Shown: piece after piece, positions 17,269 through 28,276 of the stretch
How positions within the stretch are numbered: the first letter of the stretch is position 1
Layout: every line of letters begins with the position of its first letter
NCBI RefSeq assembly: GCF_003096415.1
Contig: NZ_QEKH01000041.1
Coordinates: 1-35,381 of the forward strand
Length of the DNA: 35,381 bases
Direction: 5' to 3'
Source of the DNA: Victivallis vadensis
GTDB taxonomy: Bacteria > Verrucomicrobiota > Lentisphaeria > Victivallales > Victivallaceae
Notes under the pieces: model-generated
Databases searched by the model: none
What the model saw: the letters and a program-made list of their open reading frames with translations, nothing else
What the model was told of the DNA's origin: nothing
Made by a program: the position numbers and the translations under genes

Positions 17269-17385
17269 GTGGTGGTTCCGCTGCTGATTATTCTGATCAA
17301 TCTGCTGATCCGCCTCGGCGGTGAGCTCACCCTGTACCTGATCAATCGACATAGAAAACACAAACTAAACCAAACAATACCATAA
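17269..17385 (+). CDS. Possible small membrane protein, 38 residues
   Basis: A GTG start gives MVVPLLIILINLLIRLGGEL followed by TLYLINRHRKHKLNQTIP: one hydrophobic helix and a basic tail that would face the cytoplasm. It starts 40 bases after the giant enzyme gene in another frame. No strong ribosome site (only GGCGG) supports the start, and the same frame stays open upstream into the enzyme gene, so it may be chance or a relic. Confidence 0.25.
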   Translation: MVVPLLIILINLLIRLGGELTLYLINRHRKHKLNQTIP

Positions 17386-17432
17386 AACATATAAAAAACA
17401 CAATATTTTTGATATTTTTTGAAAATTATAAT

Positions 17433-17461
17433 TTGACATTCTCTATTTATGGGTCTATTAT
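17433..17461 (+). promoter_or_regulatory. Sigma-70-type promoter
   Basis: TTGACA (17433-17438), 17-base spacer, TATTAT (17456-17461), set in an AT-rich island (about 17390-17460). It would drive a unit that runs through the small secreted protein and the purine-rich repeat to the terminator at 18284. Confidence 0.7.
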
Positions 17462-17512
17462 AACAACAGAAGGCAGGAGCTACACTCTACTTTGATAGAA
17501 TAAGGTTGTAAA

Positions 17513-17908
17513 ATGGAAGTAATAAATCTGCGTACCATCATCAGTTCACTCTTATGGACGGTCTGTGCTTTCATTTTTCTTCCGGAAGCCGGAGCAGGCG
17601 CTCCTTCCGAACGGCGGTTCGTGAAAGCGATTCCGTTCAGCGACGATGGCATACTGGAAGAGGCTTCCATGCCGGAGGCGACACAATATGAGTTCCAGGG
17701 AATCTGCAGAAGCCGGGCGGTCCTGTTCATCGATTCGGAAAAACACAAACCGTATCATCCAGTGGAGGCTGTACGTGAAATTCCGGTTTTCACGGCTGGA
17801 ACTTTCCATACACAATATCGGACAATTCAGACCAGGCGAAGAGGAGCCGTTGCATTCGTGAAAGAGTTCCTGCAACCATCGATCCCGGCACGGGCCGCCC
17901 CGGCGTAA
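17513..17908 (+). CDS. Small secreted protein of unknown function
   Basis: 131 residues. MEVINLRTIISSLLWTVCAF continues into FLPEAGAGA, a plausible signal peptide with cleavage near residue 29. The mature part (about 100 residues) shows no known domain; FVKAIPFSDDGILEEA and HKPYHPVEAVREIPVF suggest a folded region, while the Arg/Ala-rich tail (SIPARAAPA) does not. AAGG lies about 8 bases before the ATG, and a good promoter starts 80 bases upstream. It could be intact or the front of a decayed gene joined to the repeat region that begins about 30 bases after its stop. Confidence 0.5.
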   Translation: MEVINLRTIISSLLWTVCAFIFLPEAGAGAPSERRFVKAIPFSDDGILEEASMPEATQYEFQGICRSRAVLFIDSEKHKPYHPVEAVREIPVFTAGTFHTQYRTIQTRRRGAVAFVKEFLQPSIPARAAPA

Positions 17909-17936
17909 GGCGCCCAGGCCGTACAGTCTGTCGCCC

Positions 17937-18172
17937 GGAGGAGAGCGTCGCAGGCGAGGAGTCCCGGCAAGGAGAAATTGCGGAGGAACGGAAAGTGAAG
18001 AGGCCGTTTCACCATGAGGAGTGATTTCCCGGGAGAGGAGGACCTGCTACGAAGAAGAGGAGAGCGTCGCGGAAGAGGAAGCCCCGGCAAGGAGAAATTG
18101 CGGAGGAACGGAAAGTGAAGAGGCCGTTTCGCCATGAGGAGTGATTTCCCGGGGGAGGAGAACCGCGAAGCA
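17937..18172 (+). repeat. Two tandem copies of a purine-rich 120-bp repeat
   Basis: Unit 1 (about 17937-18050) and unit 2 (about 18056-18172) repeat with a period of 119-120 bases. A 48-base core (from 17963 and from 18083) is identical, and the flanks differ at scattered positions. The plus strand is full of GGAG/AGGA motifs. Each unit holds an ATG opening a short basic frame beginning MRSDFPGEE: 18014-18118 (34 residues, Arg-rich) and 18134-18247 (37 residues). Whether these are translated is unclear; the conserved part is at least as much DNA or RNA as protein. Confidence 0.75.
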
Positions 18173-18236
18173 GGCGTAAAAGCGACAGCCGCCGTGAAGA
18201 GGAGAAAAGAGGAACGGCAGCAATGCGGCATTGATC

Positions 18237-18284
18237 CGGCGGAGTGATTCAGAAGTGAAGAGCTGAATCACTCCGCCGTTTTTT
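18237..18284 (+). terminator. Strong intrinsic terminator
   Basis: A 16-bp perfect stem (18237-18252 with 18263-18278), a 10-base loop and a run of six T residues (18279-18284). It closes the transcription unit that contains the purine-rich repeats. Confidence 0.9.
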
Positions 18285-18306
18285 GTATTCCACGCGATCC
18301 CCCAGC

Positions 18307-18335
18307 TTGAAAAAACGGCATTCCCATACTATACT
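18307..18335 (+). promoter_or_regulatory. Sigma-70-type promoter
   Basis: TTGAAA (18307-18312), 17-base spacer, TATACT (18330-18335). Transcription from about 18342 settles the start codon of the next gene, because an ATG at 18347 would leave almost no leader. Confidence 0.6.
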
Positions 18336-18361
18336 GACAGGAAAATATGAAAGGAAGCCCG

Positions 18362-18688
18362 ATGAAAGCCGTTATCATCTATATCTCAGTGATTGTGCCG
18401 GCCACGTTCTGGCTTTCGCTGTACATCGCCGGCTTCTGGATATCCGCTGTTTTTCTGGCAGGCGGCCTCGGTTCGCTGCTGCTCCTGCGCCCGATCGGCA
18501 AGACGAAAGACGAAACGCTGCGCTCCCTGAAAACCGTACTCTACGCCGCTGCCGTCACCCTCGGCTGTTTCCTGTTTCTGAATCTCTCCTGCACCGCCTT
18601 CCTGCCCCAACCGCAGGAGCCCCTGCCGAAACCGCCGCTCAAGTGCATCTGCGCTCCGTCGGACCCGTTCAGCGCCGAACGGAATTGA
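18362..18688 (+). CDS. Small inner-membrane protein of unknown function
   Basis: 108 residues with three likely membrane helices: about 3-22 (AVIIYISVIVPATFWLSLYI), 24-42 (FWISAVFLAGGLGSLLLL) and 59-80 (VLYAAAVTLGCFLFLNLSC). A Pro-rich tail with CICAP follows. The start at 18362 is preferred over 18347 because AAGGAA lies 6 bases upstream and the promoter leaves about 20 bases of leader. No family was recognised. The gene converges on the methyltransferase gene, with only 7 bases between their ends. Confidence 0.6.
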   Translation: MKAVIIYISVIVPATFWLSLYIAGFWISAVFLAGGLGSLLLLRPIGKTKDETLRSLKTVLYAAAVTLGCFLFLNLSCTAFLPQPQEPLPKPPLKCICAPSDPFSAERN

Positions 18689-24018: not shown

Positions 24019-24042
24019 AGCCCGCCGGAGATTTCGCCTTCG

Positions 24043-24093
24043 GCGAGCAGGGCGCTTCGCCCCTGCACCCCGACCGGCAAGGTGCCGGCGCCG
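24043..24093 (+). repeat. Left outer arm of fold-back element
   Basis: A 51-bp stretch that is the exact reverse complement of 24661-24711. It contains the mini-hairpin CCGGCAAGGTGCCGG and a GC-rich hairpin around CGCTTCG. Confidence 0.9.
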
Positions 24094-24660
24094 AATACTT
24101 GAGAGCCGGGAAAACCGGAACGGTTTTCCCTCCGGGTAAGGGAGGCTCCGGTAGAGACAGGCATGGAGCGTACAGGAGCGGCACACCGCTCCGGTCGGCG
24201 CAAAGCCTGCTTTTTTGCAGGCTTTAGGCACTCCCTGCGCCTGCTGCCGCCGGAGGTCACGCTCGGAACCTCCAAATGCTGACCGGGAAACAGACGGGAA
24301 CCCTGATGGAGGCTGATAAGAATTTATCTACCGATATACGCAAAGCGAGGTCAGGCAACAACGCAATTGCGATATCACAGGCAAGCATCTTTGAGTACGA
24401 GCCTTACTGAACCTTGCCTATATCAAAAGACAGGTAGAGTTCAGCCTCCATGAGGGTAATTTCACATCATCCGGTCAGCATCTGGAGGTTCCGCGCGTGA
24501 CCTCCGGCGGCAGCAGGCGCAGGGAGTGCCCGGCGTCGGCAAAAAAGCCGACGCGGTCGCCGACCGGAGCGGTGTGCCGCTCAGGTACCCGCTTGCCTGT
24601 CCACAGTAGAGTCTCCCCCCTGGAGGGAAAGGCGGCACGCCTTTCCCGGATCTAAGTACC

Positions 24661-24711
24661 CGGCGCCGGCACCTTGCCGGTCGGGGTGCAGGGGCGAAGC
24701 GCCCTGCTCGC
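24661..24711 (-). repeat. Right outer arm of fold-back element
   Basis: A 51-bp exact reverse complement of 24043-24093. Its inner edge (24656-24680) matches the pilin insert at 27445-27469 in 24 of 25 bases. Confidence 0.9.
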
Positions 24712-24741
24712 TCCAGAGGAGCGAAATCCCCGCTTCCAAGC

Positions 24742-27118: not shown

Positions 27119-28276
27119 ATGAAAAGACATTTCACCCTGATCGAGCTGCTCGTGAACATTACATGCAAAATATACAATCAGTTCCCGTACGCCGCTCTGC
27201 GGAAAAGAGAGGGGTTCGGGGGAGAGAAAGCGGCGACTCGCGCCGCGTCTCTCCCCGTACCAGCCAATCCGAACACCTCTCTCATTTCCCGCAAGCTCTC
27301 ACGTCTCCGCCAATGCTCTGCAAGCGGCAAGTCGGAGCAAAAACGTGAAGTTGCCTTTCCGCAGAAAAGCGGGAAGACAACTTCACGTTATTGCGGATCT
27401 TCCTTCCCCGCCGGCCAACCGCGCCTCCGCCAGTTGACCGTCCCGTACCCGGCACCGGCACCTTGCCGGACGCAGGGGGTGCGGGGGGCGGCGGACACGC
27501 CCCCCGCATACCGCCATTTAAGGCCATTCACCCTGATCGAGCTGCTCGTTGTGATTGCAATCATCGCCGTGCTTGCCTCCATGCTGCTGCCCGCGCTGAA
27601 CAAGGCCCGGGAACGCGCCAAGATGGCGCTCTGCGCCGCCAATCACAAACAGGTCATGGCGGCCCAGATCCTGTACTCCAACGACTACCGCAACTATATG
27701 GTCTGGAAGGCCTCCGACGGCACGCCGTTCAGCGGGGTGCTGACCGGCGGCGTCTGGGATTTCTCCACCTCGGCCGGACAGACCTTCACCCGCAACCCGG
27801 CTTTCCCGGAGTACCTCACGTTCGCGGCGCGGCAGACCTTCCAGTGCCCGCTTTCCGGCTCCTACCTCCGCAAGGACTACGGCAACTGGAACACCAACGG
27901 CTTCTACATCCCGCTCTATGAGGAAACCACCGCCTACCAGAAGATGAAGCCGCTCACCGGCGACTTCTACGTCAAGGGAGGCGGCTACTTCGGCGGTTAC
28001 GCCCTGTCGCGCATCAAACGCCCGTCGGAACTTCACCTCTACGCCGACACCAGCTTGCAGAACACCCCCTATGCGGCCTACTACTGGCGCGCCGACTACG
28101 CCGGCGACAGCAGCTCCAACGGCGGCGGCATCTGGCTCGGCCACAACGGCAGAACGCAGCTCTCCTTCGTCGACGGGCACACCGCCTCGCTGACGCTGGC
28201 GCAGATCCAGCAATTGCCGATGAAGCCGCGGCAGTTCATCTCCGAGAGCTATGTCCGCTTCACCGTCCTCCAGTGA
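27119..28276 (+). CDS. Pseudopilin, module 3, with in-frame 396-bp insert splitting the leader
   Basis: 385 residues against about 250 for its two relatives. It begins [12 protein letters not shown], a normal class III leader, then departs into about 130 foreign residues ([20 protein letters not shown] and so on, basic and Pro/Ser-rich). It then repeats [20 protein letters not shown] with the [14 protein letters not shown] helix and an otherwise normal head ending [15 protein letters not shown] (intact H-X9-DG). The insert is exactly 396 bases and has no stop in this frame. As written, the hydrophobic helix sits 136 residues in, and prepilin peptidase would have to act far from the N-terminus. 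If the insert were removed between its flanking repeats, the protein would be a standard pseudopilin of 253 residues. AAGGA lies 9 bases before the ATG. Confidence 0.85.
27131..27153 (+). repeat. Direct repeat, copy 1
   Basis: A 23-bp exact match to 27527-27549, in the same reading frame (offset 396 bases, 132 codons). It encodes FTLIELLV of the prepilin leader. Confidence 0.95.
27131..27526. mobile_element. Structured 396-bp insert in the pseudopilin gene, flanked by 23-bp direct repeats
   Basis: The 23 bases at 27131-27153 recur exactly at 27527-27549 and encode FTLIELLV. Between them lie at least four hairpins: 27219-27227 with 27248-27256 (plus inner GCGGCG/CGCCGC); 27342-27353 with 27378-27389 (12 bp perfect); the CCGGCACCTTGCCGG mini-hairpin inside 27445-27469; and 27480-27490 with 27498-27508 (11 bp). 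Part of it matches the fold-back element at 24656-24680. No transposase or terminal inverted repeats are visible, and 23 bp is long for a target duplication. The element may carry the leader sequence itself or have arrived by recombination at it. Confidence 0.75.
27527..27549 (+). repeat. Direct repeat, copy 2
   Basis: A 23-bp exact match to 27131-27153. It is followed by the true continuation [12 protein letters not shown], so recombination between the copies would restore a standard leader. Confidence 0.95.

Follow-up and report, generated by a model that had tools for sequence, protein, structure and literature searches.

Small RNAs (sRNAs) derived from 3' untranslated regions (3' UTRs) are a known class. 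RosA of Bacillus subtilis and RsaI of Staphylococcus aureus are described, in the available part of one report, as binding C-rich sRNAs through G-rich regions, and according to the same text one G-rich region of RosA may double as the Shine-Dalgarno (SD) sequence of a tiny ORF (PMC8216469). CrfA of Caulobacter crescentus is presented, in the accessible portion of another report, as a sponge for sibling sRNAs with a 10-mer motif bearing an anti-SD signature (PMC12559287).

We compare these systems with a putative transcription unit at positions 17433-18284 (+ strand) of the window, i.e. the whole stretch of 35,381 nucleotides that was analysed. Likened to RosA and RsaI by features and not by sequence, as far as the available text describes them, the unit has its own promoter and intrinsic terminator, both recognized in the DNA sequence, and several unpaired G-rich or SD-like regions, which are predicted in the isolated 3' part and more weakly in the full-length transcript. 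The AAGAGG ahead of two short frames opening with MRSDFPGEE could double as an SD sequence, in the way the available text describes for RosA. The unit differs in length (about 820 nt compared with about 229 nt in that source), in its tandem cloverleaf repeats and in the recurrence of one of their loops in the terminator. With CrfA, compared by description in the accessible text and not by sequence, it would share the design of a sponge with an anti-SD-signature 10-mer, but CrfA acts with Hfq according to that text, and Hfq was not found in the genome carrying the unit. The CsrB, CsrC and RsmX/Y/Z RNAs resemble the unit in their many GGA words, repeated hairpin loops and terminator hairpin; in contrast to them, the unit lies in a genome without detected CsrA, shows the loops GUGAAGAG and GGAGAAA instead of ANGGAN, and has no Rfam match. 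Its terminator-bearing 3' part behind an ORF recalls the 3'-UTR-derived sRNAs, although the ORF itself is doubtful.

Layout of the unit and its reading frames

The unit opens with a sigma-70-type promoter, TTGACA-17-TATTAT, at 17433-17461, which matches 11/12 consensus positions. It closes with an intrinsic terminator at 18237-18284, whose arms (18237-18252/18263-18278) form a perfect 16-bp stem around the 10-nt loop AAGUGAAGAG (18253-18262), with T6 next. Both signals are as the earlier note had claimed. A separate consensus scan omits the terminator because it takes loops of 3-8 nt. From these signals we infer a transcript of about 820 nt (17467-18284), presumed to start about 6 nt past the -10 box and to end at the T run. 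Under a strict rule (promoter of at least 10/12, exact stem of at least 8, T5, at most 900 nt) this is the sole promoter-terminator unit in 635,381 bases, about 12% of the 5.2-Mb, 99.5% complete genome, and the same scan of 635 kb yielded no other such unit as a candidate partner sRNA. The unit neighbours a 113-aa ORF (18347-18688) with gene-like codon use, scoring as a real gene, which has its own promoter-like site at 18307-18335 and membrane stretches predicted by look; 30 other genomes yielded a single weak relative of it (E 0.0013).

Past the promoter lies an ORF of 131 codons (17513-17908), in which the earlier note saw a small secreted-protein gene. The open frame and its signal-peptide-like start, a hydrophobic N-terminus followed by an Ala-Gly-Ala stretch, bear this out in part; the ORF is however an orphan with a low coding score. 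Its codon score, from a model trained on 86 long ORFs, lies at the 6th percentile of real chunks, being best and near that of real genes over 17581-17760 and poor after about 17760, and its SD energy of -4.5 is weak. No homologue better than E 0.0255 was found in 60 relatives, with a stop inside that match, none was found in GTDB contigs, and no Pfam family scored above cut-off. The AlphaFold pLDDT of 38, obtained from single-sequence input, says little. The ORF may be a gene or may have arisen by chance.

Each repeat contains an ATG opening a frame with MRSDFPGEE, as described before, at 18014-18118 (34 aa, MRSDFPGEED...) and 18134-18247 (37 aa, MRSDFPGEEN...). The further suggestion of Arg-rich peptides fares badly. 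Among real coding chunks, the 34-aa and 37-aa frames rank at the 1.2 and 6.1 percentile by codon score, respectively, and the likeness between the two peptides ends at residue nine, the sequences being wholly different after it. The 34-aa frame moreover runs through the stems of copy 2. Both ATGs are preceded by AAGAGG with an SD energy of -5.8, slightly better than the median of -5.3 for 128 ORFs, and since this energy is ordinary the frames could still be translated. Judged by their sequence, they are probably not genes.

Tandem repeats, predicted fold and purine-rich words

Two tandem repeats follow the ORF, copy 1 at 17938-18051 and copy 2 at 18057-18173, as delimited by the repeat alignment and the predicted fold. 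Over 85 nt the copies are 95% identical with a spacing of 120 (17960-18044/18080-18164), and a longer alignment of 108 columns reaches 92.6% with one 1-nt indel (17938-18044/18057-18164). The two repeats of about 120 bp, their richness in GGAG and the identical 48-nt core (17963-18010) that had been claimed are thus all confirmed. Within 316 nt the region holds 23 GGA, 15 GGAG, 10 AGGAG and 15 GAGG words. In 600 kb of the genome, taken as 29,580 windows on both strands, no window reaches any of these four counts, and within the 35,381-nt window a single one of 1404 windows reaches them, namely the repeat region itself. Dinucleotide shuffles of the region (n = 300), which retain its purine-rich composition, gave maxima of 20, 14, 8 and 14, respectively. 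The word density is therefore far beyond chance and unusual for the genome. About half of the GGAG words nevertheless reflect composition alone, because the composition-keeping shuffles give a mean of 7.1 compared with the 15 observed.

The 3' flank at 18176-18236 is made up of words from the repeat in scrambled form, among them GUGAAGAGG at 18194 and AGGAGAAA-GAGGAACGG. Between 18176-18290 and the repeat unit 14 8-mers are common, a number reached in none of 2000 shuffles; a shared 10-mer alone was seen in 102 of 2000 shuffles. Flank and repeat give no significant local alignment (144 of 1000 shuffles are as good as the best one). A degenerate third repeat copy in 18176-18236 is possible in view of the shared 8-mers.

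The minimum-energy fold is the same cloverleaf for both copies, alone and inside the 378-nt 3' part, in which a purine-rich internal loop separates the outer stem P0 from P1 and the hairpins P2, P3 and P4 follow. P0 and P1 map to 17950-17954/18043-18047 and 17962-17966/18030-18034 in copy 1, and to 18067-18072/18163-18168 and 18082-18086/18150-18154 in copy 2. P2 reads GCAA-GGAGAAA-UUGC with the loop GGAGAAA, P3 reads GG-A-GGAACGG with the loop AAAGUGAAGAGG, and P4 reads GGAG-UGAU-UUCC. The P1 stem changes from UCCCG/CGGGA in copy 1 to CCCCG/CGGGG in copy 2, i.e. a compensatory replacement of U-A by C-G, while P0 uses different bases in the two copies (GCAGG/CCUGC and UCGCGG/CCGCGA) and is paired in both. 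RNAalifold applied to the two copies gives 27 pairs, two of them with both sides changed. The four substitutions in the 85-nt register break no core pair and include one doubly changed pair, an outcome (no broken core pair and at least one doubly changed pair) found in 2.0% of 200,000 random four-transition trials. This covariation derives from two tandem copies in one genome and consists of one pair and one shifted stem.

The folding energies have to be read with the terminator in mind. The 3' part has a z-score of -2.96, which leans on the terminator since it falls to -0.68 without it, and the transcript minus the terminator gives -0.30. In two calculations on the copies alone, copy 1 scores -1.7 and -1.62, and copy 2 -3.1 and -2.68. 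Because the reverse strand folds about equally well, the predicted fold by itself cannot tell the strand. We consider the cloverleaf of both copies plausible, though not proven.

The core of the P3 loop in both copies, AAGUGAAGAG, recurs unchanged as the terminator loop, where it is presented on an unrelated stem. This 10-mer has three sites in the 5.2-Mb genome, all in the unit, while a Markov estimate expects 4.6 elsewhere on both strands. Letter shuffles of the terminator loop give a P3-loop word with P = 0.0007, and an unfiltered covariance search over 17300-18400 placed the terminator hairpin third, with 10.8 bits (E 0.014). The sequence exactly complementary to the loop, CTCTTCACTT, is absent from the whole genome, so that no partner for full 10-nt pairing exists in it and antisense pairing through the full loop is ruled out.

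Using the 16S tail of the genome itself as target, we find 14 separate predicted anti-SD-complementary sites at -7 kcal/mol or better in the 316-nt region, whereas 420 control windows average 2.67 and do not exceed 10. The pairing of UGAGGAGUGAU (-10.1) covers the SD core and, with one bulge, continues on the AUCA side. In the 3' part the AGGA, GAGG and AGGAG words are predicted to be unpaired more than under nearly all circular shifts: of 300 shifts, as high a value was reached by 1 for AGGA, 1 for GAGG and 3 for AGGAG. Exposure is weaker in the full-length transcript, where the corresponding numbers are 5 for AGGA, 25 for GAGG, 11 for AGGAG and 42 for GGAG. On these predictions, the RNA of the unit could bind CCUCC-like sequences, i.e. 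sRNA seeds of the anti-SD type, C-rich mRNA or 16S rRNA.

Relatives, known RNA families and other repeats of the genome

Further copies of the repeat were sought in its own genome, where it was found at its own locus only, a solitary repeat being half of what, by the earlier note, would speak against its reading; beyond the locus the search returned the inverted arm of its own terminator (E 7e-4) and 22 short matches with E of at least 0.12. The repeat is absent from all eight congeneric species, and blastn in 99 relatives, with four candidates scored per genome, gave just two short matches, 30 and 33 nt in length. A covariance model built from the two copies had six matches (E 0.004-0.09) in 77 other genomes of the family, about what chance would give since this equals the expectation for 78 genomes at E 0.1, and none at 0.001 in 136 other genomes of the order. 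Viral contigs contained no match to a 21-mer probe, and phages and plasmids none to the repeat. A 17-mer probe found 49 single matches scattered over phyla in GTDB contigs, with about 30 expected by chance according to our own arithmetic. Among the collections searched the unit is, by sequence comparison, a lineage-specific orphan.

The 30-nt match, in relative G050, sits at the 3' end of a gltX-like gene. The minus strand of 18212-18250 reads ESLRRINAALLPF, compared with ESLRRIDAALTKF for the last 13 residues of the gltX-like protein of G050 (E 0.021). As none of the 29 own-genome candidates, all of which were scored, offers a second place, the resemblance may be a coincidence or a fossil.

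No Rfam family reached its gathering score and membership of a known RNA family was rejected. In the best match (E 0.017) a microRNA hairpin model aligns to the terminator with 24.3 bits, its gathering score being 52, and no Csr/Rsm family appears among the matches to E 5. Acido-Lenti-1, a Lentisphaerae RNA motif held in Rfam, does not match the unit; it comes from a 2010 survey (PMC2864571) and is the one exception to a literature that, in the parts available, does not treat small RNAs of Victivallis or Lentisphaerae. CsrA (PF02599) was unmatched in the unit's own, 99.5% complete genome and in eight congeners, while the same model was found in 3 of 14 control genomes and in 4 of the 31 genomes searched. 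Hfq (PF17209) was found in 0 of 9 genomes of the genus, including this one, and in 5 of 14 controls. There is no enrichment of A(N)GGA, which occurs 4 times compared with a shuffle mean of 4.1, and the loops are GGAGAAA in P2 and GUGAAGAG in P3 and the terminator, not ANGGA. An RNA of the CsrB type is rejected on the negative CsrA search and this lack of enrichment.

The genome harbours other repeats. A dispersed element of about 400 bp at 27131-27549 lies in frame inside a type-IV-pilin-like ORF (27119-28276), flanked on both sides by the same 23-bp stretch, which encodes FTLIELLV, and a 110-nt window at 27281 has the strongest fold z-score (-7.4) among 322 tested. Within 600 kb of the same genome, four other stretches (L051, L120, L129 and L137) contain similar copies with 74-92% identity, the L120 copy likewise within a pilin-like ORF. 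The element seems to be mobile or copied and to target the pilin signal sequence. Next to the L120 insert lies a 129-bp tandem repeat (L120 16706-16984), with related copies at L137 4992, in which CGGGAT/ATCCCG surrounds a purine-rich loop holding GGAGGAACGCAGTGACGA. A giant imperfect palindrome of about 708 bp at 24025-24732, 74% self-complementary end to end, is also dispersed in the genome, with copies of up to 91% in L052, L053 and L057. Kinship of the unit to the pilin insert, the 129-bp unit or the palindrome was rejected, a non-unique 9-mer being all they have in common; blastn of 17925-18290 against 635 kb of the genome returned the self-match only.

Possible roles of the unit

The idea of a regulatory RNA put forward in the earlier note holds in part. 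Speaking for it are the common fold with compensatory changes, the loop shared by three hairpins on two unrelated stem sequences and the 14 anti-SD-complementary sites, while the CsrB type is unlikely and the unit is an orphan. We tentatively propose a lineage-specific, sponge-like RNA that would pair with C-rich partners. The putative transcript would be either a stand-alone RNA of about 820 nt or the 3'-UTR product of a small mRNA, and its 3' half would form a structured purine-rich RNA. The two cloverleaf domains and the terminator hairpin would expose GGAG/AGGAG and GUGAAGAG in loops and internal loops, so offering repeated landing sites for C/U-rich RNA. The likeliest partners would be trans-acting sRNAs, one or several, that ordinarily bind SD sequences and would pair here through their C-rich seed. 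By titrating such sRNAs as a sponge, the unit would release their mRNA targets. As with transcription, we infer the role of the loops as working parts and of an sRNA as partner.

This sponge is the likeliest positive mechanism, yet it is as likely that the stretch has no function yet. On the latter explanation, a serious contender though short of an even chance, a young lineage-specific, purine-rich 3' region was duplicated once behind an orphan ORF and came under no selection, its folding being what GC-rich duplicated DNA gives. The absence of the repeat from the eight congeneric species and all other relatives searched agrees with this, as do the 92.6% identity with one indel, which fits a single recent duplication, the whole-transcript fold z-score of -0.30, the weak coding score and a covariation of one pair and one shifted stem. 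Such an origin accounts less well for an SD-like word density that is an outlier among 29,580 windows, for the strong promoter together with a terminator, for the compensatory pair with unbroken stems (2.0% by chance) and for the loop shared with the terminator. It is rather unlikely that the unit is an ordinary mRNA of the 131-aa small secreted protein, in which the repeats would form a long 3' UTR that merely protects or terminates the message. The hydrophobic N-terminus with Ala-Gly-Ala, the 131 open codons past the promoter and a codon score near that of real genes over 17581-17760 would fit, but the frame lacks homologues in the relatives and GTDB contigs and a Pfam family, its SD is weak, its codon score fades after 17760 and its structure prediction is uninformative.

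With identical loops repeated on different stems, the unit recalls the CsrB/RsmZ pattern, as far as the available text on RsmZ shows (PMC4005645), and could titrate an RNA-binding protein recognizing GGA/GA-rich loops, a CsrB-like logic with a different protein. We regard this as improbable, since neither this genome nor its eight congeners yielded a CsrA match, A(N)GGA is as frequent as in shuffles and the P3 and terminator loops hold GUGAAGAG. That the unit serves to encode the two small Arg-rich peptides of 34 and 37 aa is very unlikely: the AAGAGG ahead of both ATGs speaks for it, but the codon scores, the complete divergence past MRSDFPGEE and the passage of the first frame through the stems of copy 2 argue against it. 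Least probable of all is a decoy whose 14 SD-like sites, among them UGAGGAGUGAU, bind the 16S 3' end in 30S subunits and dampen translation. The pairing energies with the genome's own 16S tail would permit it, but SD-like sites are not ribosome-specific, 30S subunits would outnumber any such RNA and the literature search gave no precedent. A bolder possibility, which we think hardly more probable than the peptides, is a new RNA class of tandem cloverleafs showing the GUGAAGAG loop and many SD mimics, with the loop also on the terminator, that would act as a broad decoy for the 30S anti-SD or for all anti-SD-seeded sRNAs in a host where CsrA and Hfq were not found.

If the unit is silent, it is a clean example of purine-rich duplicated DNA mimicking a regulatory RNA. 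If it is made and active as the proposed sponge, a bacterium in which searches for Hfq and CsrA gave no match would possess a regulatory RNA that works by base pairing and is built of repeated modules, its terminator loop doubling as a working loop, and this would mean that SD-mimic sponges arise anew in separate lineages.
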